From Cloeon dipterum (taxonomy: Eukaryota > Arthropoda > Insecta > Ephemeroptera > Baetidae): 64,000 bases of DNA. Below are positions 21,632 to 51,500 of the stretch, one piece after another; the stretch's first letter is position 1, and every line of letters begins with the position of its first letter. A program made the position numbers and the translations under genes. The stretch lies in contig NC_088787.1 of NCBI RefSeq assembly GCF_949628265.1, forward strand, positions 19,086,501-19,150,500, written 5' to 3'. The notes beneath the pieces are model-generated. The model was given only the letters and a program-made list of their open reading frames with translations, made no database searches and was not told the DNA's origin.

Positions 21632-24234
21632 GGTTGACCTAAAACGTAAATATGTAATACAACTATTTTTAATTTATCTACGCAAAAAACTGAATGCATG
21701 TTGAGTTGTATGTAGTAAGTTCATAATTTAGATAGTTAAATTTCTACCTTACGAATGGTAATGGTTAACACCTCATCAATGCAGTTTGTTTACAAAATTT
21801 ATACGACAGAATTTTTCATTTCCAAGGTGATTTCCAATTATATTTTTAATATAAATCGCTGCAAATCGTACAACTTCCTCATTTATACCATATCTGAATA
21901 AATCTAGATGGAAACTCACTAAGATAATATAATTATATTGAGCAGAAAATAAATTCACAGCTTTGTTGTGTCACAGGAGTATTGTCTATGGAATGGAGGC
22001 GTATGGAGGTGGTGAGTGGTGAGCTAGAGAGAAGTGTGGCGCTGCTATCGCCAGTGTGTGTACCGTCAATCGCAAAAATAGGCTGTGACCGGAGCAACTC
22101 GACCAATCAGAGTCAGCCTTTAGCCTAACCTCCAACCCGGTGCTAGCAGTCGTTTCGACCAGGAATCAGCAGGGCTCTGTCTTGTCCTGTCTTTCCCGTA
22201 GGAAATCTCATTTTCTGCATCAGCTTTTCGACAATCGTGAGTAAAACATCCCTGTTAATTACCTTTTTCGTGATATTGAGCAGTACGTGTCGATAATGCC
22301 TGTTTTACGAGTAAAGCCAGACAAAGGAATCGGTGCAAAATGTCTCGCACGTGTGTTTCTGCTTTCTTGTATAAATCAATAAAATGTACGTGGGACTTCC
22401 GCTTAGCAAGGAGAATTATTTTGATGACAGCACCCTTCTGACGTTCGAAATCAAGTCTATTGCAAATTCCGCGGTGAATTCCCAAGAATCTGAGGTTGCT
22501 CTTTGCACTTAGTGGTCTGAAAGCTGCGAACCCGGCTTTACAAACTTGTGGCTTTCCGCAGCGCTTTTGAGCTTAAATGGCGCCTCTTTTTCATCAATGC
22601 ACTGCAATAACCGGCATTGCGGTTTTCTTCTCAATCCAATATACTATTTCCGTTACGACCCTCTCATTTTGAAATTCGAGAAAATCGTCTGTATTGTCAG
22701 TATTAGAAACTATCAAATGCCCGAATATGATTTGGCGCCCACAAGACCATAAATTCATCTCATTGAAGACTAGAGAGAGGAGGAGGGGAGTGGCCCACCT
22801 CCTATTCATCTGTTAATTATCACTTGTCTCGATGTCATGAGAGCCTGATACTGATAAAAGCTGAAAAACGATGGGGTGGCGAAATAAAAGTTGCAAAATA
22901 CAGGCGGAAAGTTCTCGCAGTTTTTCGAGATGATGCATTTTTCAGAAAAAAATTATTCTCAACAAACTTTGAGCTAGATAAAAACAGTAAAAGCACCTCA
23001 CTGTTTCAGTTTGCTATTTATTTTCGTAATCTTTATAGCATACACACAAGTAATTATATCAAATATACTATGGATGGAAATAAATACAAATCAAAAGTGC
23101 TAACCAGGAAAGTCGGATGAATTCCGGTCACGTGTCTCATTCAAAACCTAAACGGGCGACTGAAACACACATAATAAATGGCGATTAATTATCGACATGT
23201 CAAAGTGTCGCGTTGTCTGATTGAAGAAAGTTAAGTGCGCGTGTCAATAGGCGCGAAGCAAATTAATAAGGCCCCGGCAATATTAGATCAATTCAACCTT
23301 CACCAAAGTCACAAACAAAATTCTGTCATTTACTCTACCCTTAATTTTCAGTGAAATTAACTCTCTGCTCATGTTTTATTCTTCAAACCTTAAATAAATT
23401 TAGCGAAACATGTTTGTTCTTGTTAATTTCTGGCGAAAAGTAGGGTGATTGACTGCACTGCAATTCGTTAGGCGTGCAACGTGCAAGGTTAAGTGCCTAA
23501 CAGGTGACAATTTATTTCTCCGCTAATAATAGTAATATCACGGTCCCTGGTGCGCGCGTGGTATTTGTTGCGCGGTATCGTGAGTGCAGAAACGCGTGGA
23601 TGTTGAGTTGAATTTCTGATTAACAGGTCGCGAGTGCAAAGTTTACCACACGAGTCAACTCTTTGTTAGTCCGAGTGGCACACTTTGGCCAGTTTTTTCA
23701 AATCAAATCGTGATTTTATTAATCTGTTTGTGCGACGGACGGTGTTGACTTAAATTTGGACTACTTGATAAATAAGTCGCGGGGAAGCAAAGGAATGTAA
23801 AGTGGCTCGGTTGAATCATCGGACTTAAGTGAATTTTCCGTGCTCAACAAACGGATCAACTCGGATAACGTGGAACTCTTTTTCAAGCCTTGTAGAAAAT
23901 TAGCTTCTGGTGAGTTCCACCTTTTTTTAAAAGAACCAACAACTTGTGAAATTGCTATTATTTGCAAATGCGTTGTTCAGTGTTAGCAGTTTTGTAATTC
24001 TCAGGTGTCACTTTCCACAAACCGCCCTTCACAGTGCCCCCCACCAACGGAATGCAAATCAGGACAACGCAAGGCACAAATTTTTTTCCGCTTTCGACAT
24101 GGCAGACAAGACATTTTCATTTCGGGTGACCACTCGTCTTGAAATCCTCTGTGTGTTTGCGTTTTTTTTTAATTCAGTGCATTACTCCCCGCTGGAAGGG
24201 AAATGTGATACATAGACATTGCATTCCCGCTTGT

Positions 24235-24259
24235 ACACACACACACACACACACACACA
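24235..24259. repeat. (AC)n microsatellite
   Basis: Twelve AC units in a row. Confidence 0.9.
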
Positions 24260-27200
24260 TGTCGCCGGCAGTCGTTGAAAATCGAGAATTCCTTCTGAGA
24301 GCGAGCGAGTTGAGCTGAGCGAGCTTGTTTCCTCTGCGCTCGCTTTTTGCTCACAGGCGCTCGAGATAAGGTTACAAGGCTGCTGCTCCGCGGGAATAAC
24401 AAAAAGCGGCAGGAAAAAGGACAAACTGGCGGCTGGAGAGTTCCACTCAACTCGAACCTTATTAATTTTATTGTATGCGATGCTTGACTGTTCTTCGTTC
24501 TGGAGGTGCACGGTGCTCACGACACGAGGGGATTTCGTGACTGCGCTCAAGCTCATTCTTATTCATAACCCCGCACACGACCAGACGGTTATTTTTGGAT
24601 AGGGATATTTTTCTAGACACTGGTATTTTTTAGAGTGCTGATAAATCATTTAACAACTTTTAGTGGAAAAGGGTAAATTATAAATCATATTGAAAAATAC
24701 TCTTATTCTACCAGTTTTCCTCTTTTTAATCAAGATCGAGGACCAATTTAACACCATTTTTACTAAAAAAATACCTTGATATAAATGCAAAATCGATTGA
24801 TCGACCAATTATTATGCTTCAAACTGTTAGGAACCTAGTAGCCTAGAGGTGAAGTACCTCTTAGGATTAGACGCAGGGGAAACCATTGAATTTGTGTAGC
24901 CTTTCCTGATGTGAACCACACACTGTAAGGAAATTTTCTATTTGCTGATTTTAGCGACTTATGATAAGAAATAGCCAAAAATTTCAATATTGATTTAAAA
25001 ATAGTTTTTGCTCAATTTGGCCGAAATTTGGTTTGTTCAATGAAACATTTCGATCAAGAGACCCACAAAAATTTAACTTTTTGAACGAGTTTAAACACAT
25101 TTTAAAATTGGCCTTGAAAATAAATCGCGTTATTCCTAGGGTGACTTACAATTAGTCGTATTTTTCGTCTAAAATCCCGCTTTTCTCGAGACGCACTAAC
25201 TGGTTCACACACCAATGGATGTCTTACTCTCTACCGTCGAGCAGCGTCCTGTCACAAGGGTCGGTAGTTACCCTCTCTCGGTCATAAATCGACATTGGTA
25301 TAATTGTTGTTTATACAAACAGCCAGATGTGTGCATCGGATTCGGTTCTTTAAAATTTAACCGCGGTTGGTTTATGAATTTCTGCTTTAAAAATACAAAA
25401 CGAGCAAAAGGGTAAAAGTACTATCGTATGGATACATCTGACCGCCGTCCTAAATAAATAGATCTCTCTTACGGATGCACGTTGACAAATTATCGTTCCA
25501 CCTTTTTTCAGTCTTTCACTTTTCCAAGATAAATGATTTTCTTCTGGCTGGCCAAGTTGTGTTATTTTTATATATCCGGTCGCCACAGATGTTCATTAAT
25601 CATTGCACAAGTATTGAGTTTGGTTTCTCATTTGATTCTTCTAATCAACTCAATTACCTATCCATATTCTATTATTTTTTACGAAAATTTTTTTATGCCT
25701 GCCAAAATAGCATAGGGATATTACAAGGTTTAAATTCAAATATCTATCAAATCAATTCCAATGGTGACTGAAAAGAATAGGCTATTTCAAGCGGAGAAAT
25801 TTAAACGAGGTGAGGAAATTGGCGCAGCAGGCGAACACTTTTGGGTCTGTCATTTCGGCACAAAGTGGTGATTTGGGAAACGCCATTCGCTTCAGTGGCG
25901 CAGTCAAAACAAATCAACGAGATGGTGATGGCCGAAAAAGAAGATTAGTTGGTGGAGCAGCGACTTTTTTTCTGGGTCCAGCCAGCCCTGACGGCAATTA
26001 AGTCATTAGCGTGCGGGTGCGGCCCTGAACCGGAATATCGCGGCATTTAAACATACGTGCGCATGCAAATTGGCGCGTTGTCGTCGTCGACGTCGCACTC
26101 TGATCTACCCACTTAAGGAATGTCTGGATGGCGTCACCGTCCAAAAGAGCGCCATTCATTCGCAGATCGATCCTTTTCACACGTGTAAAGCCAAAGGACA
26201 ACCGGTTCGTTTGCAAAATTGAAAATCCGTCGCGGGAAAACGCAGCTCGTGCGGAATTTATGGCGCCTGTCTCTCTCCCGCTGCGGACTGCCGGTACTAT
26301 TTCTAGTTTTCCCACACAAAATCTTGTGCTCTCACATGGAAACATCTAGAAGGAATTATTTGTCCAGATTTCACAACGTTTAAACGCAAAAACTTTTTTT
26401 CTTTCGGAAATAGCAAATGATCTGATTAGATTGCAAAATGATGAGGCGAACACCTGTTAAATTAGCTTGGCACCTGCCACTTGGCGGCCGGCCATTCGCG
26501 AAAATGGTCCACCGAAATGAGTGAAACCTAAATGCGGTTCTGAGAGCATTAATTAGTCCTTGAGTAAAGGCAAAAACTAAAAACCGGCTCAATGCGATGC
26601 TACTATCAGTGAACGTAAATGTAGTGGGGAGTAATTTCATGTACGACTGGCTTGGTTTCAAACACAGTGACTCTTTATTAACCGGTATTATATTGCACGC
26701 CTTGAAGTAGCAGCTTTGAACACGAAAAAGACACGCAGACAGCTTTTTATGACACCAAACGTGCTTAAATTTATAGAATGAATGGAATAAAACTCTTTGA
26801 TCCTCCGGACTCAGCGACTCTCTCTTACACTGCTAATACTACTACATACTTGCTATGGAAGCGTTGAACCCTTAGTGTTACATTTTTAGTTATTTTGTTT
26901 CTTATTGTGGCTTGATAATGATAAGAGACATTATTAGAACATAAAACTAAACAGAGCAAGTCAGCACTGATATTATAAAAGCAAACAATTTTTCTGTGTC
27001 AGTAACACTGGATAAAATTGTTTTTATTATTGCAAAGTATTTTTTATGTTGCATGAAAAAGAGTTAGCCCTATTTCTCTTACATTATCAAATATTTTTAT
27101 TCGCATGAAGCACTTGAAGAGAATAAAAATATTCTAAAATATTTAAAGATGAAAACTGTTTGATTACGATAGATAAATGGGAAAGTTATCCTTGTTTGCT

Positions 27201-27681
27201 TCTTTTTTCATACTCTTAAGAAATTTTCAAGTAATGTGCTCTTTATTTGAGAGAAACCCCATTTTCTTAATATGGGAGGTTACAAATTGAGTGCAATATC
27301 AGACACTCCCTACTTGTTTACAAACTTTCGCAAATAAAAAATGCCATCTTTAAAACTAAAAGAGTCACCACTTTTCTGTATGTTTGACAAGCTGAAACGA
27401 CTACATTTAAAAATGAGCCTGAGTGTCGCGTGTCGAATATATCACGAGTCCTCTCCTCGCTCGTATTGCGCGAATGCTCAAGCTGCTGGCGAGCATAAAT
27501 TCTGCCGATTGCCGTGGGTGTATGACCCCGACGAGCCAAATTGGCCGCCTGTGCAGGTATTGGTGAACCGAGGCACCGCGCGGCCTTACATCATTTGAAA
27601 TTCCGCCAAAGTGGTTGACAGACAGAGCCGCAGGCGAACAATTTGAGTATCGAAGGCACGAGGAAGATGTGCATTTTTTGC

Positions 27682-27705
27682 GAGAGAGAGAGAGAGAGAG
27701 AGAGA
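27682..27705. repeat. (GA)n microsatellite
   Basis: Uninterrupted GA units; GAGAG runs can also bind GAGA-type factors in insects, but no function is shown. Confidence 0.85.
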
Positions 27706-27977
27706 AGGTTAAATTTAGACGTTGATGACTTGGGGGTTTCTGCTTTAATTTTCACGGAAGTGAAGGGGTGATTACTGTCCCTTTTGCGAAATGAGTTGGC
27801 TGTTGAAAATGAACTGTGACTCAGGTTTACGTTTAACATGTGTGGCAATAGATGTGAGGGATTTTAAATATTTCTTGTAGCTAGGTTAACAACCTTAAAG
27901 TAGAGCTTAACAGGCCAACAATGAAGTAGATTTTTTTCCATTGTTGACTCTTGCGAGAAGTGGTTCATTGTAAGAAT

Positions 27978-28090
27978 GATAGACACAGGATACGACAATC
28001 AACTTTGATCCTAGTTACTCGCCATTCGCCATTTGCGAACAATAGCAAAGTAACTACAGTCCAAGTCGATTGTCGTATCCCGTGTCTACC
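27978..28090 (+). ncRNA. Candidate miRNA-like hairpin (41-nt arms, 31-nt loop)
   Basis: Left arm 27978-28018 pairs with right arm 28050-28090. About 35 of 41 positions are complementary (counting one G-U), including an unbroken run through GGATACGACAATC / GATTGTCGTATCC. The 113-nt length, the terminal loop and scattered single mismatches fit a pri-miRNA stem. I do not recognise the mature sequence. Either strand could be transcribed, so the strand is a guess; a short inverted-repeat transposon remnant is the alternative. Confidence 0.45.
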
Positions 28091-29044
28091 ATCGAGTCTA
28101 TTGTTTGTGGAACTTACTTAGTTAGCATCCGTTTTCTCTTCAATGTGCAATAACGAAATCAGGACCAAGGAGCAGTTGAATTCCAGATTTTGCCAAATTT
28201 ATCGGACAATTAATCGATTTGTCAATGATTTTTCGCTTGATTTCGATTTCATTTGTCAAAATCTTTCGAACAGTGTGCGATTTATTGGGTAAATTTTACT
28301 TTTGGCGAAAAATCTTGGTTTTTAATGGGGAGATAGTGTTCGCAGCTTATTTAGCATGCAACCGTTACAGCCGATTTTCTCAGAAATTTAAACGACAAAC
28401 CTGAGAAAATTTGAGCCCCTTCCCAATTTTTAAAGAGTATTTCAAGTAAAGGTGGAAAATATTTTTCTGGAAATCTTTAATTTAAACTGGGATTTCCGTA
28501 TTTCCCAATATGAGAAATTTTTATTGAAATTGGCTAATTTACTGCTGAGATATTGCTACAAAAAAAATCAAGTATCCAGACATCCAGAGTTAAATCTACA
28601 TCGGATTAGAGGCTGTGTACGGTTTTGAATTGTCCCCTTTTCTCTTATCGGTTGTTAAGGCCAAAACCGAAGGACAATGGAATGAATGGTCACCTGACCT
28701 CTCACCCGTTTGTGCCGACTGAGTACTTCCTTATCTAATTTCAACGTACCAAAGGTCTTGCTTTTAAAATAACCATCAAAATTGAATCCCGGAATTTCCG
28801 CATCTGCTCAAATTTGGTTGACATTGACAACTTTGTTGCACAGCTAAAATAATATTTGTTTTTTTTATCATCATTTCAATTAAGAAATACAGCAAAGCAT
28901 CAAAAAAAAAATAAAAAAAATAAGAAATACTTAAACTTAGATGGTCTTCGTCACCGTTTTTATTTCGGAGCAGCGGCTGCTCGAATGGATCAAAATGTAG
29001 CAAATTCGTGATTTGTCACACGGCGAATGAGAGGCACATGATCG

Positions 29045-29337
29045 GTGGTTGGGTGGCTAATTAATCGTCTGCTCGAACTAGGTCGGAGGGGGCTACGTCT
29101 TAGGCGCCTGCCAAACGGGTTCACTTGGTTATTCTCGGCACGCGTACAAATCCCTCCCCGAGGGGGCTGTGGCTCCCTCTCCGCGCGGCTCGCCCCGCCG
29201 CCTCACCGCTCACACACACACATGTTGCGCGCCTACCGCCGCCGCTGTCAGTCTGCCTCAAAAGCGCTACGCACACACTTCCTCCCGTACCTTCCGAAGG
29301 GTGGCTCTCGGCTCTCTCTGCACTTTGTTACCACAAC
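29045..29337 (+). promoter_or_regulatory. GC-rich leader before an orphan first exon
   Basis: A distinctly GC-rich, CpG-containing block in AT-rich surroundings, ending directly at ATG 29338. It looks like a promoter and 5' UTR. No TATA box is evident. Confidence 0.35.
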
Positions 29338-29428
29338 ATGGAACTGAGTAAATCCTTGTTTCGTCAAATGGTCAGCGGCCCAGTCACTAACGCGGTGCTC
29401 AGCAGGGTCAACGCCGGCGTCGGTCAAG
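29338..29428 (+). CDS. Orphan first coding exon, product not recognised
   Basis: The ATG is in good context (CACAACATGGAA) after a GC-rich leader. The exon encodes MELSKSLFRQMVSGPVTNAV and ten more residues, then a donor CAAG|GTAAAATCG in phase 1. I do not know the protein; the basic, hydrophobic start could be a targeting sequence. No partner exon is certain. The donor phase matches exon 2 of the downstream SLC20 gene (42462), so it might be a far-upstream alternative first exon, but that product would lack the first transporter repeat. A separate gene, or a chance open frame, is equally possible. Confidence 0.35.
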
Positions 29429-30075
29429 GTAAAATCGCTTTATTTTGTTTTTTGGTTTTTTTAGTATCTTTGCCGAATTTCATGGTCCGTGCTTAATGCT
29501 ATTTGCGCAAAGAGTTGTCATCCTCGCTGTTAGCTAAGCGAATTATGCATCAGATGTCGATTCCGAGAAGCCATTGGTTTGTTTCTCTCTGTCAATATTT
29601 GATTTCTTTTTGCTGGCTAGAACGAAATTGCAAAGTAGTGAGTTTACTTCGAGGCCGTCCTCACCTGAAACGCAATTCAGCGGGATCTTTCGTTGCTTTT
29701 TTTCTGCCGTGCCAAAAATGATGATTTTAAGCTAAACGGAAACTTAAGTAAAATAAATTCCAAGACTTTCCTTGAACGATAAAAATTGTGGTAGTCAGTG
29801 CGGGAAAAATAAAAAGGCGCGAAAAGCACCAGTATAATGTTCTCTCGTCCGCATACTCCGCACCTGGCTCCTCCACACGCCGGCATCATTGCTGGAAAAG
29901 CAAACATCATCTACGGTGACACGAGCCAAAATCAACTCATCCTCCAGCAGTTTCTGCATATTTATTTTCGGACCACGCGATGGGGCAAAACGCCAAAAAA
30001 AGTAATATTTTTTATTGTTCCTCGTGCATGTATAGGCCAGCGTGGGAGTTTGGCGCGCATTTCAGCCCAAACTCA

Positions 30076-30115
30076 GGCGCCATCTCCGCGCCATCTTCTC
30101 GACAGAGATGGCGCC
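30076..30115. promoter_or_regulatory. Cluster of three CTCF-like AGATGGCGC motifs
   Basis: GGCGCCATCT at 30076-30085, GCGCCATCT at 30088-30096 and AGATGGCGCC at 30106-30115. Two point one way and the third faces them. Three copies in 40 bases is far above chance for a 9-base motif. Confidence 0.4.
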
Positions 30116-33100
30116 TTCTTCCGCTTCTTCTCTTATCACTCCTGCTTATCAAAAAGCAATCGTTAAAATTGTGAACTGAGTGATTTGCCGCTTCGCCACT
30201 TCCACTGGCGCCTTCGGTGCTGTTCGCCAGTATTAAATCACGTCTCCTTGTTACTTGTCATTACTTTTCTCTTAGAGGGATCACATGTTTTAAAGAATCC
30301 TCTTTTTTGCTTTCAAATTATTTCATTGCTGCATGCTAGGAGGAGCCAAGGTTCAAAATTTTAATTGGATTGCTTCCGCTTGAAAAATCGACTTGCTAGA
30401 TTTGTACCATGTGATCTTATCTTAAAAAACCTGCCAAGCTTAATCGACTGCTTTTTAACTTTGAACTCGATTTCAATTTTTTAAACAATTTCATATGGGC
30501 CAGTCAATTTAAATTATTAAAATTTTAACAAACTTTCCGCAATATGATTTTTAATAATGGTGGGGAACTAACAATATTTTGAAGAAAAAACTTGGATACA
30601 GCTATTATGTACATTTATTTAACGACTAGTGGTTTTTAATCTTTATAATGATGATGAACTACTTTTTTGCAAGCTTTACTTTGGCTTATATCATCCGTGC
30701 GACTGCTTTAGTAGTGTAAAAAACTGTCATTATCTGATTCTCTAATTACTGCTCCACAAGATTTATTGTGGGTTCCCCCCCCCCACAAACTCGTTGCGCA
30801 CGAGTTTTGCGGCGATTCAAGGAAATTATTTCACACGAAAGATGATAGCTGGCATGAATTACGTCATGCGGCGATGTAATTCCAGCGGAGATCATGACAA
30901 GTTGGCGTGCACATCTACACAGTCGCATAAACACGATGTGTGGATGTAGATGTTGGCGACCGCTGCTCAATCGCGCCCAGCATTGAAACCAAAATGATAA
31001 TTTTCCTAGAAGGATGAGTAATCTGCTGGTTACGCAACGTTGCTTAAATTTTTTACCTCACCCTGATACTTCAACATTACACATCGTAATTGATTTTTTT
31101 TACTACTGGCTTGTTGACATTTTTGGTCGCGTATGGCAATTATCATCGCCCGACGATCAGGGACCGAACAAGTGGCATTGAATAAATTGCTTGCAAATTA
31201 GTGCAGTGCTGGCCAAAACAGTGGTGTTTCGTCAGCTGACACATCAGTGGACACTTCACAGAATTACGCAAGTGTCCTGAGCTTGCTCCTTTTAATTAAT
31301 ATAGAAACGAGCGCCGTAATGACGTCTGTCGTCGAGATCAATCGCGTGCCACTGGGCTTAAACGGAAAACCAAAAAGCTATTTTAAGAAAATTCATGGTT
31401 GTTGCAGTGAAATGTGCAAAAGTGAAACTTTATTACTATTTGCTCCATGTCGTAAAAACTCTGAGCGCAGTAATAAATGTATAATATCACGGCCGCATTA
31501 TTGAAATTGAAAAAAAAATGTAATCAGATTTAACATGTGCGTTGTATTATTGTTGTAAGGCTAGCAGTTCTATTTTTGTAGTGTATTAGAGCAGGGTAAT
31601 AGTGATTCTTTATCTTTGTCCATGCAAAATTATCTATCTACATATCGCAACATGGAAACTATTATTATGACAAGGTTTCCAAGCACCAAGAAGTGCTTCG
31701 GTAATTTTCAATTTAAAATCATGTTCCTGTTTGAAGATTCACACGACCCATCGCAAACCTGTTTGAAATAAAGTACTCAGTTGAAAACCTCGTGATCTCT
31801 TTTCGGCTCAAAGGAAAATCAGAAAATGCAAAGTAGACGCAAATTCTCGGCAAAGGTAGTAAATAAATTGCAGCTTTACTTGCTATTACGGTTCAGTACA
31901 CAAGGTTTTATTTGCGTCTCGTCAAGTGTGCTATTCAAACAAAGTAAATCACTGGGTAGAGTAATCGCATTGTTTTAACTAAAAGCTAATCCCGCCCCTG
32001 CGCGAAGAGTGACGATTCGATCGAAAGTGTTGTCTGCGTCTCGCGGCGTAAAAAGAAAACGTAGAGGGGGCACAACAAAACTGAAATGCACCTTTGGCGG
32101 CTGGCCAGGGCGATTTACACGCGCCGCCGGTGTGACAGAGCGAGCAAGTGACCGAAAAGAAGTTCATGCCCTCGCATTTTACGGCCTCGAATCGGCGCCA
32201 AGTTTTATAACGGGCAATTTTTGGACTTTTAGTGCGAAATTAAAGTAGAATTTAATTGGGCCCGTAATAGCAGCACACTTCTCACCGCAACACGTGTTGA
32301 ACTGATGTTGTTTGCATCTCCTCTATGTGCATATACTTCATGCTGCTGAAATTGGCTTATTTGCGAGTCGTACTCCTGCTAATTGCACGAAGTTATTTAA
32401 AAATTATATGGGATAACTCTAAAAAAATTTCTAAATGTGGAAGGAACAAGACAATAATGTTTTTAGAAAAGTCAGATATTAAATTGTAAGACCTCTATGT
32501 TATTTTAGCAGGTATAAAATAAATTTTCACAATACAAAATAAAATGGATAGGTTATTTAGTTAATTTGAAGGAAAAAAATTAGAAACCAAACTATTTGGC
32601 TGTACAATGATAAGTGAACATCCTTGGCAACCACAGGAATAGAAAAAACAACTTTGACAGCCAAAAGAAAATCATTTTTCCTGGTAATGTGAAAAGACCG
32701 TGAGAACGACTTCCAAATGTGCATCCCTTAAGGAAGAATATTTTTGTTGTACGACCACAGGCATACATACAATAATAGTGCTTTACCCGGAAACGCTCTA
32801 TTTTTTTTTTTTTTCTAGAAGAAATTCAGAAAATTGACTGACTGTAAATATGAAAGAACCTAATTCGACGCGCACATCTGTTTTTTTTAGAGACAAGATA
32901 AACAAATGTAGGACATCCATTAGTGAGTAAACCAATGAGTGCATCTAGCAAAATATTACAATTCAATTATTGGCTAATTTTTACAAACTAAATTCAATAA
33001 ATTTTGTGGACGCGCAAGAGAGAAGGTCGGCGTCCGAGGAGCAGGCAACCCTAAAACACCGCCAGGGAGCGGAGCAAGAAGATGACCAGCAGCTTCTTGT

Positions 33101-35635
33101 CTCTTATTTGATGCGATCATTAATGAATTGCCAGAAGTACGCTATTGAAGTTGCATGATCTGAGAGAGTTGGATTAAGACGCGGATGTGCGCTATTTTCA
33201 TTATTTAGTCTGTTCTTACATAACAAGCTAATCAGATGTAATTGTTGTGCCAGACGTACATGGTAAAATTTATTACCAAGGAAAAGTTTGCATAAAATCA
33301 TTAAGTGCTGAGGAAGTTGAATGCAAAATGACTCACACGCTCTTAGTTGTTTGAACCCGTTTAGTCCTGTTTAGCCGGTTCACCTGGCCAGAGAATTCAA
33401 TATTTTTGCGTGACGTCAGTTATTTGGACGCGATAATCGGCGTTAATAGGCGCCAATGAGTGCGCACTTATTTTTCCTCCGATCGGCCGCCAGATCGATC
33501 GTAGTGGGATGTTTTTTGTTTGCACGCAACTTTATGTAACGACCGAGTTCGATCGTGTTGTTTTTATTTGCTTTGCTACCGACCCTGTTAGCCGTTCTAA
33601 TGAGGAAATAATATGCGCGCGGGCCATAAGCTCTAATCAACACCAACCAACTTGTTTTCCAATTGCTTTTGAAAATTTTTTCACTCTCAGATGGTGAAAC
33701 AGCACGCTCTTAGAGAAGCAAACAGCCATGTTGTTTTCTCTTGCGAAGGGGAAATAGGTTTGAAACAAAGTTTGCTTCTTTCAAAGTATAAAAATTATTT
33801 TCTTAAGTGCATGTTTTGCGTTAATGTGCAATTTATGTGCGCAAGTAACAATAGTAACTGCACTGTCAGCAGCAACTTGTGTTATCAGTTTTTAACTGCT
33901 CGTTATATTGTTAATAAGAATTTTTTCTTTATCGCAATGTTCGTGAAGCCCCTCTACATTGACGTAATACCCGGATGGAATGACGAAGATTACTCAATGA
34001 AGAGTGAAAAAATTGGTTAATGTAGTGACCGAAAAACATGGTCCCTTTTGACGCTACTAAAAGAATTTTCCAATCTTATTTTTGTTTTTATAAAAAATTG
34101 AAACGTTAAGAATCTACAGAAATTCTTAACTCAATGAAACATGAACCGTAACGTATTAACTATTGTTAGGCAACACATTTTCATCACATGCAAGAAAGAT
34201 TTTGTTTCATATCCTGAATGTTTTTTTATTTTCATGGATCACTGCTTAAAATTTAAGTAGGGTCGTTTCACAGAAAGATTGCGTCTGGGGAAAATAAGCC
34301 CATCGTCTTAACTCTCTTATAATACCTTTTGAATTCATTCTGGGGATTACCCCCGAATACCAAAGTGGGGATTGGGGAGGGAATTTTTTACCCTTCAGTC
34401 GACAGTCGTCGAGTCACAAACCATCCATCACCATCAGATCCGGGTAGGACAAAGAGCTTATATATCTTTAGGTATTTATATTCTATTAAGCAAGGACACA
34501 CATTTCACAGCAATCAAAAACTTAAATAAGTAATTTTCTACTTTACTTTGGCAACTAGATACTGAGGATTTCATTTTACGAATTTTCCGCTCAAATTTTT
34601 TAAAGATAGGCCTAGTTTGCCAGGTTTGGGCTTGTAAAATTTTAAGATAGCCCATTTGAATTAATTTCCTCGACGTCTAGCTCAAGGCTGCTGATATTCT
34701 TCGAAAGTAAAATTTGCTAACTCGATTCACCTTTCGCACTCACAAACACGTCACCGGAGGTGTGTTCGCCTGCGTATTAAGATGTCCGTGTGCAAATCCA
34801 CATTGGCGGATGTCAGCAGGGAGTCCTGTTTTATGTAGCACACTTAGCTTTAATATTTTTTGCGCCCGGTGAGATAACATCGCGAAAACCACACCCTCGT
34901 GTCAATGCGCTCGCGTTGTCTAGCTTATCTCGCCTTCATTTGGTGTGTATAAATTTATTTAGAGCGACATTCATTGCGAGCTTTTATTCCGTCACTGGCG
35001 TTAATCCACGCAGGTTGTCGGGTTGTCGCCTTCCAGCACAAAAGGAGGAGATAAAAAAGGTATAAAAACTGCAAATGGGGTGTCATTTATTTTGCTCTTC
35101 GGTGACAAGTCTCTATTTCGAGCGACGCCACCAAACAGAGTAGGGCCTTCCTGTTTGTGTGTTGTGTCGCCCAAAGAAAGGGAAACAAAAGTGCCGTCAC
35201 GTCTGCTTCCAGCACGCTGCTCCAATTTCGATGCCGTCTAAATATTTACGTTCTGCGCACTTTATTGCTGGCGTTTGAAGGTCAAATTCAGGCTCTAATG
35301 CTGATGAGATTAGCCGTGGAGGAGTTTTATTAGGATCGGATTAAATTTTGTTACAAATTCTCTTCTGGAAGATCTACTTAATGACCCTCCACAAATATTG
35401 TATATTATAAATTTATTGTATTTATTGTTTAATGATTTATTTATTTAAATTTTTTCATGAAATTTCAAATATATTGGGGAAATGTGGACTTAAGATTTAA
35501 TTATAAAAATCATGTGGAAAAACCAACACATCATAAACTTATCAACGAAGAAATAAATAATTAATTTCTCGATAAGACACGCTAGTGCCTTCTTTAAGTT
35601 GAAAGCTAAGCTTAATCTCGTTCTTGTTGTTTCAG

Positions 35636-35828
35636 ATGTCTGCCAGCAATAACGTGCAATTACGGTGCTGCGCTCGCGTGGACCGACAACTGGTGTCCTA
35701 GCCAGGGCTTCAAGTTCGCCCAACGCAACTCGTCAGGGCCTCCACACCCCCACACATCTCAATAGTCAATCTTCAAGTGCAACCAATCAGAGGCGAACAC
35801 ACTTCTTTTCCTTTTCCTTCCCAAAACT
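35636..35828 (+). other. Possible spliced exon (non-coding or UTR)
   Basis: A good acceptor (TTGTTGTTTCAG, ending 35635) and a consensus donor (ACT|GTAAGTGAC at 35829) bound a 193-base, relatively GC-rich block. No frame is open throughout in a way that joins the recognised genes: joined to the 29338 exon it stops after five codons. It may be a UTR exon of the SLC20 locus or of an unknown transcript. Confidence 0.25.
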
Positions 35829-36191
35829 GTAAGTGACACATTCGATTTCATGAATTCAGGATGCTGCGGCGGCAATACAGGCTTGGCACTGGACCCACCA
35901 CGTGTCGCAACGCGTTCTGTCTTCATTCGCTCGATTTGAAATCGGATCTGGCGGCGCACTCGCTTTGGCGAGCCCGAAGGCCTCTCGTCCAAATGAACCA
36001 GAGCTGCGAATTTCTCGCCTGTCTCTCGAGGTTTGCGTCTTCCTCATGGGTTCAAATCATTTTGTTTTGATCGCATTTCGCTGATGACGTCTTGTGCAAG
36101 CTTGCGTGCTCTCATCTGCTAGAAATAAATCACCGACTCCAAAGGCGCAAACGCTTTGCTTTGACCGGATCCAAAGACTGAAAGTAGAAAT

Positions 36192-36221
36192 GCGTTAATT
36201 AATTACCACATTAATTAACGC
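36192..36221. repeat. Perfect 12-bp hairpin
   Basis: GCGTTAATTAAT, a 6-base loop and its exact reverse complement. It contains paired TTAATTAA homeodomain-type sites. Confidence 0.6.
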
Positions 36222-38720
36222 TTTATTTGCATTGCCTACGTCTGCACCAGCTGGTGTGTCGATTTTTAGAAAGTTTGCAGTAAACAGCATCTGTACACGC
36301 TCGCCAAAGTACTTTTCTTCTGTGTCGGAGTTCTGAAATTAAAATTTTCCTCGAATGCAAATGTTATTGCGTCCTCGAGCGAGAGTGTTTATTGTTTGAA
36401 AGTGATTACTTCCTCGGTTGCTTTGTCGCCAGAGCGATTTGCTGACTGACAGCCCCGGCGGATCGGACACATCTGCCTCGGCCTTGTGCTTGGGCGCTGT
36501 ATTTGCATGTTGATCAAAGACAATTGCGTGCCCCGCACCTGACGGACCGAATCGAGGAGCAATAACAAGCGTAATGTTTCACACCGCGTGCTGTTTGTTT
36601 GTTCTCACTCTTTGTCTGTCTTTTTATGTTTGTCAACCGCTGTCACTTCCACTTCAGCCCGACAGTGCAGCCGCGCGTTCTATCTGTGTCAGCCAGATTC
36701 GCCTTATTCGCTCGAGTCTCCACCACACCAAGTTTTATCGAACTAAATTGAGACAAAATGGTGGATTTTAGTTCCTAATTAACACTGAAATTATATTTCG
36801 GTGATTTAACTTTCATGGACTAGACGCTTGATTGAATTAGCTCTTTAGTTTTGTTATTTATTATTTATTAAATGGGTATGGCGTTTAATTTTTAATGCCA
36901 TTTTGTAACGTAGCATTCATTCATGTCTTACACCGTGTTACTAATTAATTTTCAAAACAAAGGCTTGACAGCTGTACGCCACTCATCTGCCAAATTTTAC
37001 AGCTCTCGCACCATCCTGCCAAGTGGTTAAGAGGATTAAGTTTGATTTATGTCATTTTTCAGAGCTTGAATTATGAAGTAACCATTTAAAGTTGTTACGC
37101 GCGACGAGACTCAATTCAAATTGACGCAAGGCGAATGAGCAATCTCAGTCTAGTCAACATGCGCGCCTCCACCGACGCTTTGCATGTGCACTATCGCACT
37201 TTATCACACAAAAATCGATCGAGTTTTGACTATTTATACAAACCGCCGACGTATTGATCGCCCGTTTTCACTAGCACACGTTGCAAACCCCAACAGAGAT
37301 TGCAGCTGCCGATCAATGCTCTCGCGGCACCCTGGCTGGGACGCATTATTTTTTGCCCTGCGCTTTATATGGGTCATGATCAGGCGTGCTGGGCGCCGGG
37401 CGCGTGTTTATTGGCAAATGATCAATAGCTGCTGGCGCGACGCTTCAATTCGCTGTGGTGACATTTTGCCGTTCCGTCAACCCACCCACCGTCCACCCCC
37501 TTACCAATATGAGGATTCTGAATACGATCTTAACGAGTTCTGGGTGCACTGCTTTGCTTTTGTAATCAGTTTGGTATCACATATGGAAAGAGGAAATCAA
37601 GGTTCTAAGTTCGAAAAGGAGTGCTTTTCGCATCCTAAAATTTACGGTTGAAATGTTTAAATATTTCTATACTTTGTAGATTCGATTCATTCACATATTT
37701 CGTTTTTCTATAATGGCTTCATTTGTTATAATCATAGCATTGCATTGTACTGCAATGTCGTGCATTGCATAGTCACTTATAGAAAATTGTGCGAAAACAA
37801 ACTGAATTTATTACATCAGTTGAACCCTTGGTTTGAAACTGAAGTAGCAACAATTAATCAAGCAGTTATCACTAGTTTTTGTTTGTTTGAGCCTTTAATT
37901 ACACAACCGTGCGGTGAGATATCATTCATTGTGCCTGTGCATACATTATTTACCAATTTCGTAATTGCAATAATTCGTCATTTCTCCTTCGTATGCTGCT
38001 CTTTTCATTCCTGGCCAAAAGTTGGAACTATAATTCAAAGTGACAAACCGCTCTCCATTGTCTTTGTTTGCACTTTGAAGTTCGTGGCTGAACGGGGAGT
38101 TGGCCACTTTTGGACACGAAGCCAGCGCGTCCTTGGCCTGATACTCGCGGCGCGAAAAGTGAATCTGCAACCCTCAAGGCCGAGCTTATGTGTTACCCTC
38201 GGTGCAATTGCGCAAATAGCTGACATTTTTATCTTCTAATCTCGCTACTTTCCATTACGAAGCACCAGCTAATCCGATCTCCGGTTAATTACCCCGCCAT
38301 CGACCATGTGCCGCTTGCTGACATAACATATCTTAACAGATTAGTTTTGTGTCATTCCTTTTGCAAATCGTTCCGATCGAACCTTTGTACCCATAGAGAT
38401 CACGAATAGAGTTTTTTGTGGTCTCGTTTTTGCTCTATTTGATATTCAAAGCGCTGTCAACAGTGAGCGTTGGTGATAAAAATTTTCAAAGAGCCACTAG
38501 AATCTTCTAGAGCGGGATCCCGCCACTCAGCACACACTCTCAGCACCGTTTATCCACCCTTTGTTCGTGGTGCAAAGTAGGTCATTCAATTAACCCAGCA
38601 GCGAAACAGGCCAGTAGTCTTGTTCGTGCTGCGAACAAGGGAAGCGAATGCACAACAATTGTCGACAATGTATCTTGGAGCTGTAAAATAAAACGACAAC
38701 GGTGAAAGGACAACGCTTAA

Positions 38721-39325
38721 TCATCCCCCTTCCGCATGTAGTGCGAGGGTGGTTGGCGCCAAGAGAGTGCACCCAAGGCTAGCCTTCGTCTGCCCGTCCT
38801 TTTTACTCCTCAGCTGGAAAAGTTCTGGAACCCGTCGGGGGGTTGAAGGGGTGGGCCAATCGATGGCGCGGCGCCGCCGCCGTCGCCGACTGAACAGCGA
38901 GCGGGCAAAACACCACAACCGAGTTTGCGGTGGTCCGGCGAGCATGGTGTCAGCATCCGTCGTTATCAGTTATAGTTGCTGGAAAGAGAAGTCTTCTACG
39001 CTCGTCGAGTGGAGGGGCACCCCTTAGCCGGTATAAAAAGGCAATGTGCGGTGGTGTTGTTTTGGCATCATGTCGTTAATGGCCGATCGGCGGGACAACA
39101 CCGAGCACCGCACCAGCGGCTTGTGACCATCTGGCCATACTCCTGTCAATGGCCAAAAATTAGCGCCTCGTCCTGCGGCGTGTGTGAGTGTGTCAGTGCG
39201 AGCAAATAACACCCGCGCGCGTATAAAAGGCCGAACGCAATGTCGCACCTGCTCAACTGAAATTTGACCGGCGAACCGACTGATTGTGTGCTCTCCGACC
39301 TACTTGCCCAAAGCGAGACGCGACG
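38721..39325 (+). promoter_or_regulatory. SLC20 promoter region with two TATA boxes
   Basis: GC-rich block with TATAAAAA at 39032-39039 and TATAAAAG at 39222-39229. The second is followed 33 bases later by CTCAACTG (about 39252-39259), a plausible initiator, giving a short 5' UTR of about 70 bases to ATG 39326. The first could serve an earlier start site. Confidence 0.55.
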
Positions 39326-42300
39326 ATGGCTGCTCGCTACTCCGGATCCAGGAGAATTTTCCTTGTGATACTGCTACTGTCCGCCTGCTGCTGTGATACG
39401 GTCCGATGCTCACTTTCGACGCCGGCACCTGTCTTGGTGACCGCGTGGTGCCAGGACGTTGCCTGGGTTGTCATCCTCGGCTTTCTGGTCGCTTTCTTCC
39501 TCGCGTTCGGCACGGGCGCCAACGACGTCGCAAACACGTTCGGCACTTCGGTCGGCTCCGGGGTCATCTCCCTGAAGAACGCCTGTATTGTCGCCACGAT
39601 ATTCGAAATTCTCGGTGCAGCCCTCATCGGTGAGTCTCTCAAACCGTGTTCTCCGTTCTTGTTTCAGGTCCGTCAGCAGCAGTAGTGCCCGAGTTTCGCA
39701 GCCTTCTGCCTGATGACTCTATTTTAAAACCCCTCGCGTGCCATTCAGCTCAATTTCAGTATTTTCTCTCTCTCTCTCTCTTCCGCTATTTTTTCTCTAC
39801 ACGTAATGCCGACTGTGATAACTCCCGTAATTGTAAGCTGTTTTAGTTTGTAATATCATGAAGAGTGAGCGTGCAATCTAGACACAAGTTCTTTTTTTTA
39901 AATTTTGCATATTTAGTTTTTCTCTCGTAACTATCGCAAAAAAAAAATCCAAAATGATTGCACCCGAGTCACCCGAAGTTATGTGGATTCTGATCCTTGG
40001 ATTTGTGGTCGCGTTCGTTTTGGCCTTCGGCATCGGTGCTAACGATGTGGCCAACTCTTTCGGTACGTCCGTCGGTTCCCGCGTACTTACCGTCAGGCAG
40101 GCCTGCATCCTCGGCACTATCTTCGAGATCGCTGGCTCCGTGCTAATTGGTAAGTTTGGTGTTGATGCAAATGCAAATCAAACATGAACTGTACACCGGA
40201 CTTTCTTGATTTTATGACTGGAACATTAGTTTACATCCTGTCCTTGTTGTTCTTTGGCGAACTGGTTTCATTCAGATTATCAAAGTAAAAAAAAGTTTTT
40301 ATTTATTTGCCTTCATATTAATTGCGAAAGAGGAATAAGCGTGACCTCCGTAAAATCAGTAGTTGTCATTTTAAAACCGAGGAGGCTCGATCGTCATTAA
40401 TTAGTCTGATAATTGAGTGTGGATTCCAATGCGGACAAAATTTATGGAACTGATCAACGCCGCCTCGGCCGTATGGCGTCTACATCCGTGACCTTCTAGC
40501 CATCCGAAACCCACGTGCTCGCCGCCGCTAAAAATAAGCGGCTTGTGGTGAAAATTGGCGCGCGCGTGCTCTCTCATCGCGTCTAGCTTTTAAATTAGTC
40601 TCTCTATTTTTTGGACTCCCGCGGATTACGTAATGTTGCGAAAAGCCCCGCTAGCAATAGATACCATATGTGTGCCAGCAGCCCGCGCGAGTGACGCAAC
40701 GTGCCCAATTCCCTTGCCCTATTATCGATTCGCGCGGATGCCCCTCCGCGCGTCGCACTCACTTGTGCCAGACTGGCGGCGCCGAGTCCGCTGCACGCAG
40801 CCTCCATCCACCGCGGTCTGCTTAGCAAATTGCGGTAGCGCAAATCCGCACAGCATGTAGAATGTCTGCCTGCATCCCTCGGTCGACATTGGAAAAAAGG
40901 AATGCAGACAAAGAAAATAATTAGCCTCGGGCTTCTTGGCTCTAAAGTGGAGATTTATTTGCGTCTTTATTTATTCTTTAGCAATTTATCCCTGATTAGC
41001 CCAACTGAAAATGAACGTGGAAAATAAAACATAAATTCTGTTCCCTTGTTGTTTATCATAACAGAACATTCACATTAGTAAGATAAACACTTCTGTTCAA
41101 CAAGGAGTTTAGTTAGTGGCAAAACAAAACGGATTTTCCATTAAAAAATAGCTCTGCCTATAGAGTTTCGCTTTCTCTTTTTTATCCTTGCATGAAACTC
41201 ATCAAAAAGAGAACAACAACTGAAGGCTAAAATTAAGTGGAATTGTTTTGTTTCAATTCGTGGCGCAAAATTGAAACGCACATGTGGCGAGAGCGAGGTT
41301 TTAAAACAAGAACATCGAGCCTCAGGGGATCCAAAGGTGGTGATAGCTTAAAATAACTCACAAACCTTATCTGGTATATTATTAAATTTCTATTTATTTA
41401 CGATATATTTGAGAACTTAAATTTCGCATAATGTTCTTTCTTTTTTCTGTTAAAAATGAGGTAAAATTAAACGGCTGATGCTCTTGTTTGATAAAATTTC
41501 AGCACCCCCCCCCTCCCCTCACAAACTTTTGATGTTTGCAGACTTCTCATTATTAGTTAGCTGCGTGATTCATAAATTTATAGCTGTTGCCAGAGTGTAT
41601 AAACCCGGGGAAATGAGATAAAAGCGACTCCCGTACTTAATGAAAATTGCGCACTTCGCAGCCCCCGCCGCTCCTCTTTTTCATTCGCACAGAGTTCAAG
41701 GTGGCGGCTCTGCCATTGGTGCACACCTTCTTTTTTGCCTCCGCATTTCGGCAGCAGCGTGACGGCCGCTTTTACAACCGCACACGCCGCTAGAGAGAGA
41801 TAAAATTGAATTTAAAAAAATCAGGCGACGCGTTGGGATCCGCCCTCCGGCTGCCCACCACCACCCTGCTCACGTAGGCTCCGCGAGTTCGATAACCAAA
41901 CGGTCAAAGGTCGCGGCCGCGCTTCTGCTGACTGCCGTCCACACGAGTGTGCGTCGGGCCGGTTTTGTGCCGCCTACAGCACGACACACATTTTTGAAAG
42001 ATAAAGAGGATTGTTCTCGCGGCCGTCGAGAACCTTCGGGTCAACGTGGTTCACGTGGGCTCTAGAAAGAATATCATCGTGATTTGAAAAAAAAAATTTT
42101 GTTCGTACGTATTTGATCGATCGCCGGCCATTGCGGTTAAAGAGGCAAAGAGTATGACAGCTTATTTAGGTGGTAGGCAACCTGCGCATCACCAATGCCA
42201 AGAAGTTGCATAATCCTTTGAAAATCAGATCGAGTTTTTATAATGGGGCATGATAGAAGAAAATAATCTGAAAAGTTTAATTTAACAAAAGAATCGTGTC

Positions 42301-45300
42301 ATTCTTTATTTTAAAATGATAAATTTACAAAAGGTAAAATCACACAATAATTCCATGTAGTTTTATTTACGATCGAGGATCTAGAAATGGGCAAACCAAA
42401 ATTTGTCATTTTACGTCCTTATGTTAAGAATTGTGTCGTAAAATGGTTGTGCGTGTTTCAGGCTACAAAGTGTCGGATACAATGCGGAAAGGAATACTGG
42501 ACGTCGACCAGTACCACGGTCATGAAAAGGAGCTCATGATGGGCTGCCTCTCGGCGCTGGGTATGTCCCGACGACACTGCTTAGTGGCAGAATCTAATTT
42601 TTTTGAGTGCTCCAGCTGGCAGCGCTGTCTGGCTGATCGTCGCCACCTACTTCAAGCTGCCCATCTCGGGCACACACAGCATCGTCGGCGCCACAGTTGG
42701 CTTCTCCTTGGTGGCCCGTGGCACGGGTGGAATCTCGTGGAGCAAGCTCCTCACCATCGGTATTACTATGTCAATACGCTGTGTTTGCTTTTCTTCTAAA
42801 TTGGAATTTAGTTGCTTCATGGTTCGTGTCCCCGGTGCTGTCCGGCACGATGTCGCTGGCCCTGTTCGTGCTGATCCGGCGCTTCATCATCAGCCGACCT
42901 AGACCGCTCATACCTGGACTCAGGGCTCTGCCCCTGATCTATGGCATCACCATCATTGTGAACGTCTTCTCTATTTTCCATGATGGGCCCAAGCGTAAGC
43001 GTGTTCCTGTTCATTTGGGTTAAAATTTAAAATTTCTTTCTTTCCAGTTCTCCACTTCGATCGTATTCCATTGTGGGGCTCAATCGTGGCAAGTTTGGCC
43101 ATTGGTGTGACCGTGTCATTGATCGTGCAATGCTTTGTCGTGCCCTATCTCCGTAAAAGTATAATCGGTAAGTATTTCGTGGATCGAATTTTATGTTAAA
43201 AACAAAAACCATGCGAAATCAATAAAATGCTCCAAACTTGAGGTTAAATACACACCTGTGTTGTCCTGAAATGAAAGGAAAAGAAATATTCCAAAAGTGC
43301 TTGCTTGTTGGTTGAGCTCTCTGTATGTTAGTCTGCTTTAAACTATGTCGGGACATTCCAGAGATTTTTCCAAATTGAAAGCATGACCTAATTGTAACAA
43401 ATCAAATGATTGGCCAAACCCTGGATTAGTTTGATTGGAGCCTCTCTAGATTTGCATGGCTTCTAATGGCAGCTGGATAATTTTTGGCCCCTTTCAGAGC
43501 ACACAACGAAAGAGTGCGAGGGTCAGGTGAAGTTCACTTTCGGAGAGTCTGCAGGTAAGTCAATTATCCAAAAAAAGAGAGGACTGTTTGTCTTAGTTTG
43601 TTGGCTTTTGCGTTTGACCCTTTTGTCTTCCCACTCCCCTACTCTTTGTGATTTAAACGTGTTCTGAATTCATAGACGCCCCAATTTTAGATTCGTCTCG
43701 GGACCATAGTCCGCAGCAGAGCAAGAACATCTCCGTCGAGGATATGGGCCGACTCGGAGTGATCACCGAAAACATCGAAATCACCGCACTCAGCCCCAAT
43801 GAACTCAAATCCAACGGCAACGCCAAGGGCACAAACGGCTTCATCATTGGTGACAAAGTAGTTGCCAGGGTGAGTGTGTTTCCCATTCAAAGTAAAACTC
43901 ATATTGAATAAGCTCTGCGATGTAGATTGGAGAAAACGGAGACATGCCAGTGCCACAGTTGCAAGGAGGCCTCAACTCTGGCAATGTCACCCCAGCCTAC
44001 GGTCTTTCTCCCAACAGCAGCGCAGTTCCTCTCATCAGAGAACGGGTGCCAGCCAACCAGGTATGACGCAGAATAAAATTCCTATTTATTTTTTTCCTAC
44101 TGCCCAGAGCTACAGAAAATTCCCCCTATTTCTAGATATTATTTTTGTTTCAAAATTTTGCCAGGATTTCTTTTAAGTGGTTTGACATATTTAACAAAAA
44201 TCATCCCATTGTAGGGGATGGGCAAAGGCAAATGAAGAATATCTTAAGGTTGATAGACATTTATTAAAATTTTAAATACAACCCAGGCATTTAAATATGT
44301 GACTTAAGTCTGACCATTTAATCCAGCCAAAAATGGAATCGTAAAAAATTATTTAAAAATCTCCAGGACCCTGAAGCTGCAAATGGCAATCTGCCCAACA
44401 GCAACGCTGTTGTCCAAGACACTCCAGAAGTTAGCCGGCTCTTTTCATTCCTGCAAATCCTCACGGCAACTTTTGGTTCCTTTGCTCACGGCGGAAACGA
44501 CGTCAGGTAAATCAAATTAGCATCAAACCCCTACAAAAATCTCTACAACTTTTTTTTTAGCAACGCCATCGGTCCTCTAGTGGCGCTTTGGATGATTTTC
44601 AAAGATGGCGCAGTGCACCAAAACTCCGAGACCCCGATTAGTATCCTCTTCTACGGAGGCATCGGCATTTCACTCGGCCTCTGGATCTGGGGCAGGCGGG
44701 TCATCCAGACAATTGGAGAAGACTTGGCAGCCATCACTCCTTCAACGTAAGCCAGCCGGCTGTTTCTCAAGCGCACAGAAGAATTAATAATTTGTATTCT
44801 GCCCCTATAGTGGTTTCACCATTGAGATAGGAGCCGCATTTACAGTTCTGCTGGCCTCAAAAATTGGCTTGCCAATCAGCACAACCCACTGCAAAGTGGG
44901 GTCCGTCGTGTTTGTCGGATGGGCGTCATCAGACCCTGACAAGAGAGGTGTTGACTGGAAGCTCTTTAGGTATTGTGACACTTTAAATAGAAATTGAAAA
45001 TTAAAAATTTTCTTTCCATGTAAAATGTAAGCCACATTTGCAAGGTTTTAGCTACACAGGTTTTCCCTAATCTATTATTTTTGCCAAAAGAAAACTAGTT
45101 TTGCTGCCTGACTAGCGGTGTACTAAGTTCCCGGTAAAACAAGGACACGCAGAGTTCAAATATTAAAATTAATACATGACACCTGCTCGCAGCGAGAAGA
45201 CATGCTGAAAAGTAGCAAATAAAACAAAAATTAAATTAAATCCTTTGCAATAAATCAATATGAGAGATTTCATAATTTCTTTTTAATCTTACGTTATCAA

Positions 45301-45575
45301 GGAAATTGTTTTTTTTTCACTTTTTTTCCATCCTTTAACAATTTTAGGTTATTGGAACACTCTTTAAATAAAAAACTCCCGCTCTAATGTCAGTTTTTGC
45401 TCAAAAATTTGATAAGTTATTTTTGAGTCAAATATCGCATTATATTTTAATTTCTATTCTTTACACGATCTCACATGATTGCAGGAACATCATTTTCGCC
45501 TGGGTGGTGACGCTTCCAGTAGCGGGCTCGTTGAGTGCTGCTTGCATGTACCTGCTGACAACGTTTGCTATGTAA
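39326..45575 (+). CDS. SLC20A: SLC20 (PiT) sodium-dependent phosphate transporter
   Basis: Type III sodium-phosphate symporter of the plasma membrane. Exons with the first variant: 39326-39629, 42462-42560, 42616-42759, 42812-42994, 43048-43167, 43498-43554, 43676-43869, 43926-44060, 44367-44506, 44561-44746, 44811-44969, 45485-45575; all in phase, 603 aa. The two PiT signature repeats are present: [16 protein letters not shown] near the N-terminus and [17 protein letters not shown] near the C-terminus. Other landmarks are [20 protein letters not shown] and its C-terminal mirror [20 protein letters not shown]. Multiple membrane segments flank a long hydrophilic cytosolic loop (43498-44400), as in the family. 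Exon 1a also encodes a signal-like hydrophobic stretch ([13 protein letters not shown]). A second first exon lies at 39954-40149. AATAAA at 45610. Confidence 0.97.
39954..40149 (+). CDS. SLC20A: Alternative first coding exon (1b) of the SLC20 transporter
   Basis: Starts [17 protein letters not shown] and carries [18 protein letters not shown], ending in a phase 1 donor identical in phase to exon 1a, so either joins exon 2 at 42462. Over the shared 59 residues the two exons match at 40 positions by my count. This variant gives 567 aa and lacks the signal-like leader. It has its own ATG. An acceptor-like ATTTAG ends at 39916, but splicing 1a to 1b there would shift into a stop, so the two exons appear mutually exclusive. 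In 1b the usual G of GSG is R. Confidence 0.85.
40150..42461 (+). other. Large first intron of SLC20
   Basis: 2.3 kb between exon 1b and exon 2. Contains a C-rich run near 41504-41518 and GC-rich patches near 40440-40860 and 41640-42060 that may be regulatory. No additional homologous exon 1 copy was found. Confidence 0.6.
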
Positions 45576-51190: not shown

Positions 51191-51238
51191 CCTTTTCCCT
51201 CTTTTTAAAAAATGATTAACAATAATTATATTTTCAGT

Positions 51239-51500
51239 TTCGATGGAACGCCAAGTACAAAAACATGAAAAACCTGAAAACACTTGCCCATGGTGCCGAG
51301 CGACATTTAAAAAGGCCGCTCAGTTACAAGCACATGTAACTGAGCGGCACAGAGATAAGAAACAAATTCAATGCAAGCTGTGTGGCGAATTTTTTAAAAA
51401 CCCTACGTCAAAGATAATTCATGAAAAACATGAAGACTATAAAAGTTCTCCTCAAACCTTTTTTAAATGTGTTCACTACTGCTTATTGCATTTTTTTTAA
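51239..51500 (+). CDS. C2H2 zinc-finger exon, gene incomplete
   Basis: A TATATTTTCAG acceptor ends at about 51238 and the frame runs from ATG 51243 to a stop at 51500. It encodes a linker-like HEKPENT, one good C2H2 finger (CPWCRATFKKAAQLQAH then VTERH) and a second, imperfect finger (CKLCGEFFKN then HEKH, with only two residues between the histidines). The tail after HEDYKSSPQ is hydrophobic and may be intron read-through; no clear donor was chosen. Nucleic-acid binding is inferred. Upstream exons are not identified, so this is either an exon of an unknown gene or a remnant. Confidence 0.5.
51315..51348. repeat. Perfect 14-bp hairpin inside the zinc-finger exon
   Basis: GCCGCTCAGTTACA (51315-51328), a 6-base loop, then its exact reverse complement (51335-51348). 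It lies in the first finger, across the codons for the AAQLQAHVTERH stretch. Confidence 0.8.

Follow-up and report, generated by a model that had tools for sequence, protein, structure and literature searches.

In vertebrates, the type III sodium-phosphate cotransporters of the SLC20/PiT family include a pair of transporters, PiT1 and PiT2. The signatures of the family, which we take to be an N-terminal motif of 11 residues and a C-terminal motif of the GGNDVSNA type, lie in two repeats, and conserved transport-site residues lie in the repeat with the first PiT motif. For Drosophila, the passages on dPit (NaPi-III) describe one type III gene and leave alternative first exons unmentioned (PMC3280997, PMC6584732).

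Duplicated exons used as alternatives are, in turn, a known arrangement in other genes. In tandem duplicated exon pairs such as the N-terminal pair of tropomyosin, as the passages on them have it, the homologous exons are adjacent and of like phase, and the resulting proteins differ only in one homologous stretch. For human genes, 236 tandem duplicated exon substitution events are reported in the passages of PMC9741552 on this subject, most of them ancient and with three quarters of the isoforms being tissue-specific. Twelve gene families have such events also in their fly and worm orthologues, six of which are ion transporters (PMC9741552, same passages). The sole name beginning with SLC in the main text of that paper is SLC12A1. 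A description of alternative first exons in an SLC20 gene was not found among the titles and abstract openings listed from open-licence literature, which is weak evidence of absence. The SLC20 locus of the mayfly Cloeon dipterum described here shares with the tropomyosin-type pairs the adjacent homologous exons of like phase, but the duplicated exon is the first coding exon, so that alternative promoters, and not splice choice, may enforce exclusiveness. As a sequence feature the pair is well supported, and the gene probably makes two transporters with different starts.

The analysed window, a stretch of 64 kb to which all coordinates refer, contains a complete gene of the SLC20 type on the forward strand. 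Our model has 12 exons and ends at 45575; its open frame comprises 598 amino acids when it begins with exon 1a and 562 amino acids when it begins with exon 1b. The parts of the gene are as follows.

39326..39629, + strand: exon 1a, alternative first coding exon of 101 codons and 1 base; donor gtgagt, phase 1
39356..39394, + strand: hydrophobic, signal-peptide-like segment of 13 residues in exon 1a, behind a stretch of 10 residues
39515..39535, + strand: signature GANDVAN (first PiT) in exon 1a
39954..40149, + strand: exon 1b, alternative first coding exon of 65 codons and 1 base; donor gtaagt, phase 1; start context aaATG
40035..40055, + strand: signature GANDVAN (first PiT) in exon 1b
42462..42560, + strand: exon 2, shared, with the first acceptor for both first exons
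42616..42759, + strand: exon 3, shared
42812..42994, + strand: exon 4, shared
43048..43167, + strand: exon 5, shared
43498..43554, + strand: exon 6, shared
43691..43869, + strand: exon 7, shared
43926..44060, + strand: exon 8, shared
44367..44506, + strand: exon 9, shared; contains GGNDV plus two bases of the following codon, the bulk of the second PiT signature
44561..44746, + strand: exon 10, shared
44811..44969, + strand: exon 11, shared
45485..45575, + strand: exon 12, shared; stop codon TAA at 45573-45575

Every intron of this model is of the GT-AG type. The donors of exon 1a (TCG|gtgagt) and exon 1b (TTG|gtaagt) are both good and both in phase 1, and one acceptor, gtgtttcag|GC with its exon start at 42462, serves the two of them. 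A sequence-only reading of this DNA had placed the two exons at these coordinates, with phase 1 ends that fit exon 2 at 42462, and the open full-length models bear this out at each point. The existence of one SLC20/PiT gene with two homologous first coding exons, 324 bases apart and each compatible with exon 2, is confirmed at the level of the gene model. For exon 7, a second in-frame acceptor AG lies 15 bases upstream; its use would move the exon start to 43676 and add five residues.

The domain and signature matches place the gene product in the SLC20/PiT family of type III sodium-phosphate cotransporters. Each of the two first exons, scored alone, exceeds the cut-off of 33.7 bits for PF01384 (PHO4), with 44.8 bits for exon 1a and 52.2 bits for exon 1b. 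The signatures of the two PiT repeats are in place, GANDVAN in both first exons and GGNDVSNAIGP across exons 9 and 10, and isoform B (the protein that starts with exon 1b) aligns to the Thermotoga PiT (PDB 6L85) over two stretches that span both halves (263 bits, E 4e-77). A PHO4 search of the 190-Mb, 10-contig genome, made in six frames, exon by exon and scored for the best candidates only, returned seven matches that all lie inside this gene; six of the seven exons score above the cut-off, one of them only jointly with its neighbours, and the seventh falls below it. As genome queries with E values up to 10, exon 1a and exon 1b each find themselves and the other exon only. A separate SLC20 paralogue elsewhere in the genome was thus rejected on both searches, within the best candidates scored, and no relative was found in a viral sequence collection. 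The genome searched resembles that of Drosophila, as described in the passages cited above, in that one type III gene was found.

The divergence between the two first exons is that of an old pair. They are identical at 39 of 58 aligned residues, and the 40 of 59 counted in the sequence-only reading is reproduced when the Gly split over the junction is included. By contrast with the first and second codon positions, which agree in 43 and 52 of 58 cases, third positions agree in 21 of 58, against 21.0 expected for unrelated third bases of the same composition. Fourfold sites agree in 6 of 22 cases, and the NG86 estimates are 0.21 for dN and 3.48 for dS (ML dS = 11). Neutral decay was simulated with substitutions only and one drifting copy (3000 runs per level), counting the runs in which this copy acquired no stop and still matched at 39 or more of the 58 residues. 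At 0.25 substitutions per site such runs numbered 230 of 3000; at 0.5, 1.0 and 1.5 there were 0 of 3000 at each level. Since the silent sites are saturated, the real divergence must lie far beyond 0.25 per site. Proteins that remain alike over randomised third positions, together with the failure of neutral drift to produce such a pair, argue that the duplication is old and that both copies have stayed under protein-level selection. For conservation of both copies among related species, the same pattern is no more than indirect evidence. The flanks of the two exons are unlike, with local scores of 16 and 22 compared to shuffle means of 16.4 and 19.2 (maximum 25), as is expected for an old duplication. 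A recent duplication is rejected on the saturated silent sites and the dissimilar flanks. In addition, the PiT parts of exons 1a and 1b have in-frame mean codon log-odds of 0.68 and 0.50, respectively, where the 95% point of the null is 0.17. This null consists of 432 open segments from 24000-38000, a region assumed, without annotation, to be non-genic, and the codon table was drawn from the shared exons of the SLC20 gene plus a helicase piece, after two further pieces with internal stops had been excluded.

The proteins encoded by the two exons differ in their N-termini and in individual residues. The shared stretch is preceded by 7 residues in exon 1b and by 43 in exon 1a, and the start of the Thermotoga PiT aligns to the tenth residue of exon 1b; over 55 residues, 28 are identical to the Thermotoga protein in exon 1b and 21 in exon 1a. 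Among 80 relatives, a sample found with exon 1b as query and hence biased, 58 are nearer to exon 1b, 18 nearer to exon 1a and 4 tied. In 26 relatives from a family search (56 loci, 30 of which were left out as low-scoring, incomplete or duplicate) the corresponding numbers are 18, 7 and 1. The N-terminus of exon 1a has the shape of a signal peptide, a positive start followed by a 13-residue hydrophobic run with a mean Kyte-Doolittle value of 3.05. The Thermotoga PiT has the two PiT repeats in common with the mayfly protein, but no counterpart of this segment. The signal-like segment proposed in the sequence-only reading is therefore right in its hydrophobic shape, whereas codon usage lends no support to its coding status: the region 39326-39451 scores -0.04 in frame and -0.01 in another frame, compared to a null median of -0.24 and the 95% point given above, and so is not distinguishable from non-coding sequence by this measure. 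The ATG at 39326 is the sole one in the open frame of exon 1a. Upstream of exon 1b, its frame is open for 72 bases before the ATG (39882-39953) and would read as a hydrophobic stretch; with its negative codon score (-0.43), this stretch is probably an untranslated leader.

The contrast between GSG in exon 1a and GSR in exon 1b, to which the same reading had pointed as a difference in the pore repeat, carries less weight than was claimed, since G and R are both frequent at that site in the family. The 26 family-search relatives have K in 11 cases, R in 7, G in 6, N in 1 and H in 1; the 80 relatives found with exon 1b have G in 53 and K in 27, and the Thermotoga PiT has R. As the functional difference between the isoforms, this site is weakened by the K/R/G variation. 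Other sites separate the exons from relatives to a similar degree, on both sides. In exon 1a, the T before GAND, the T after VAN and an N for Q are present in none of the 80 and none of the 26 relatives, and the same holds for a G for A at one site of exon 1b; the sites of these residues themselves vary in the family sample. The S after VAN sat inside the search pattern of the 80-locus sample, so that constancy there is partly built in. Both exons keep 18 of the 22 positions that are invariant among the 80 relatives, the departures being S27 in exon 1a (within a search pattern) and F14, A46 and A54 in exon 1b. With departures on both sides, neither exon stands out as the damaged copy. A functional difference between isoforms A (starting with exon 1a) and B is possible on these residues and N-termini.

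Candidate core promoter elements were located before exon 1a.

39032..39038, + strand: second TATA match, which could serve an upstream leader exon
39222..39228, + strand: TATA box (TATAAAA) 104 bases before the exon 1a start codon; candidate core promoter for transcript 1a

In the interval 38500-39325, two TATAWAR matches stand against 0.11 expected, with a probability of 0.006 for at least two (2000 mononucleotide shuffles). With a transcription start about 31-33 bases beyond the match at 39222 (near 39253-39255), the 5' UTR would be some 71 bases long and free of ATGs; a start near 39063, from the match at 39032, would place four ATGs before the exon 1a start codon and is less likely for this exon. 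Between exons 1a and 1b there is no TATA match, and no clear core promoter was located before exon 1b. The single TCAGT between the exons lies at 39756, and the ATGs behind it at 39806 and 39858 each open a short upstream ORF. The presence of a TATA box and a leader without ATGs before exon 1a, and the absence of a TATA match between the exons, favour a TATA-driven transcript 1a and a TATA-less transcript 1b.

We infer that the two exons are used in a mutually exclusive manner. The sequence-only reading had held that splicing exon 1a into exon 1b would hit a stop, and this is nearly, not strictly, true. Seventeen AGs are listed, of which 13 were tested, and joining through 12 of the 13 gives a stop; the AG with its exon start at 39889, a weak acceptor with a score of -3.7, yields an open 1a-1b fusion. 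Pairing of intron stems as a mechanism of exon choice was not convincing, as 38900-42600 contains ten inverted pairs, all of at most 22 bases, and one of the two longest holds a CT/GA stretch. A 14-base direct repeat at 39655-39668 and 42449-42462, the latter being the end of the intron that precedes exon 2, was put down to chance.

The reading that we prefer, and consider moderately probable, is that two promoters drive the alternative first exons 1a and 1b of the lone SLC20 gene found, that these exons were born of an old tandem duplication, and that the isoforms differ in role. We infer the promoters, the exclusiveness and the roles of the isoforms from the sequence. The duplication would have produced two exons, each encoding an N-terminus, the first transmembrane segment (TM1) and the first PiT signature. 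Transcription from the TATA-type promoter at 39222 would yield transcript 1a, in which the exon 1a donor is spliced to exon 2 and exon 1b leaves with the intron; a TATA-less start shortly upstream of 39954 would give transcript 1b, spliced straight to exon 2. Exclusiveness would most likely follow from the two promoters. Isoform B, with a short N-terminus nearer to the Thermotoga PiT and a canonical PiT start, may be the general-purpose transporter, and isoform A, with its signal-peptide-like start, may be regulated or tissue-restricted, differing in insertion or targeting and perhaps also in kinetics. A more far-reaching version is that of a long-standing split within the gene into two phosphate transporters, with two promoters, anciently diverged TM1/pore exons, a cleavable signal peptide on one of them, and differences in both targeting and transport, as a counterpart of vertebrate PiT1/PiT2. 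We put this forward tentatively, as a doubtful extension, since the unusual look of exon 1a's pore residues derives in part from a sample that its search pattern had biased.

Exclusive use could also be a matter of alternative splicing, with a non-coding leader exon upstream shared by both transcripts and with exon 1b as an internal exon that has its own acceptor and start codon and is picked instead of exon 1a. Its elements could be the TATA match at 39032 and, behind it, a donor-like GTGAGT at 39184, yet from about 39063 to 39184 the leader would carry ATGs at 39070, 39079 and 39149, and the TATA box directly before exon 1a speaks for a start inside that exon. Acceptor-like AGs do precede exon 1b. 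Six of them score 4.4 to 6.8 (exon starts 39668, 39677, 39749, 39760, 39847 and 39917), two of which exceed 5.5, the 95% point of the background, and all of which stay below 7.7, its 99% point; the training set of the acceptor model comprised 11 introns, and with leave-one-out scores of -3.8 to 9.1 for the gene's own acceptors these values say little either way. We judge a common leader to be quite unlikely. It is very improbable that one exon is a relic or stands outside the normal transcripts of the gene, for instance exon 1a as a remnant of a second gene copy. Such a remnant could do without its own set of downstream exons, but neither exon has a stop or a frame shift, the donors are intact, and protein identity has been kept while the silent sites were randomised.

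The preferred two-promoter reading also has to be weighed, in its part on isoform roles, against the view that both exons are expressed and the proteins are equivalent, the duplication mattering only as a second promoter and the residue changes being tolerated drift. As this view is compatible with either promoter scheme, its probability overlaps with theirs; taken by itself we regard it as unlikely. It would account for the 18 of 22 invariant positions present in both exons, for the variability of the GSG/GSR site, and for the variation in the family at the sites of exon 1a's unseen residues. Less easily accommodated are the four invariant positions at which one exon departs (the one in exon 1a being partly pattern-built), the T before GAND and the N for Q in exon 1a and the G for A in exon 1b, found in no relative of either sample, and the N-terminus of exon 1a, which is a different kind of segment.

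If both junctions, from exon 1a and from exon 1b to exon 2, are used, the two phosphate transporters made from this one gene would be identical outside the N-terminus, TM1 and the first PiT motif, and would amount to a natural swap experiment in the repeat with the conserved transport-site residues. An insect with one SLC20 gene then need not have one transporter, which bears on work that equates a single type III gene with one function.

Some observations concern the assembly and the neighbourhood of the gene. Family matches in the genome look like those of an insect: 7tm_6, the family of insect odorant receptors, gives 5 (two with internal stops), and Chitin_bind_4, the family of arthropod cuticle proteins, gives 94. 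For Cloeon dipterum, RNA-seq of tissues that include gut, gills and Malpighian tubules is described in PMC7250882, and ATAC-seq of embryos in PMC11491810. TTAGG is the common telomere repeat of insects; no exact run of six units occurs in the genome assembly. For COX1 the assembly gives one weak match with two stops inside, and a mitochondrial contig seems to be absent. Two further pieces of the window scanned with Pfam gave no match, and the Pfam matches outside the SLC20 gene are the following.

407-808, - strand: TRIP12-type TPR, below cut-off
10810-11409, + strand: helicase C-terminal domain
12303-12737, + strand: EAF elongation factor
16237-16611, - strand: chondroitin N-acetylgalactosaminyltransferase
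21041-21298, - strand: CCDC22
51216-51500, + strand: zinc-finger matches
61093-61236, + strand: RRM protein
62999-63225, - strand: Alg9-like mannosyltransferase
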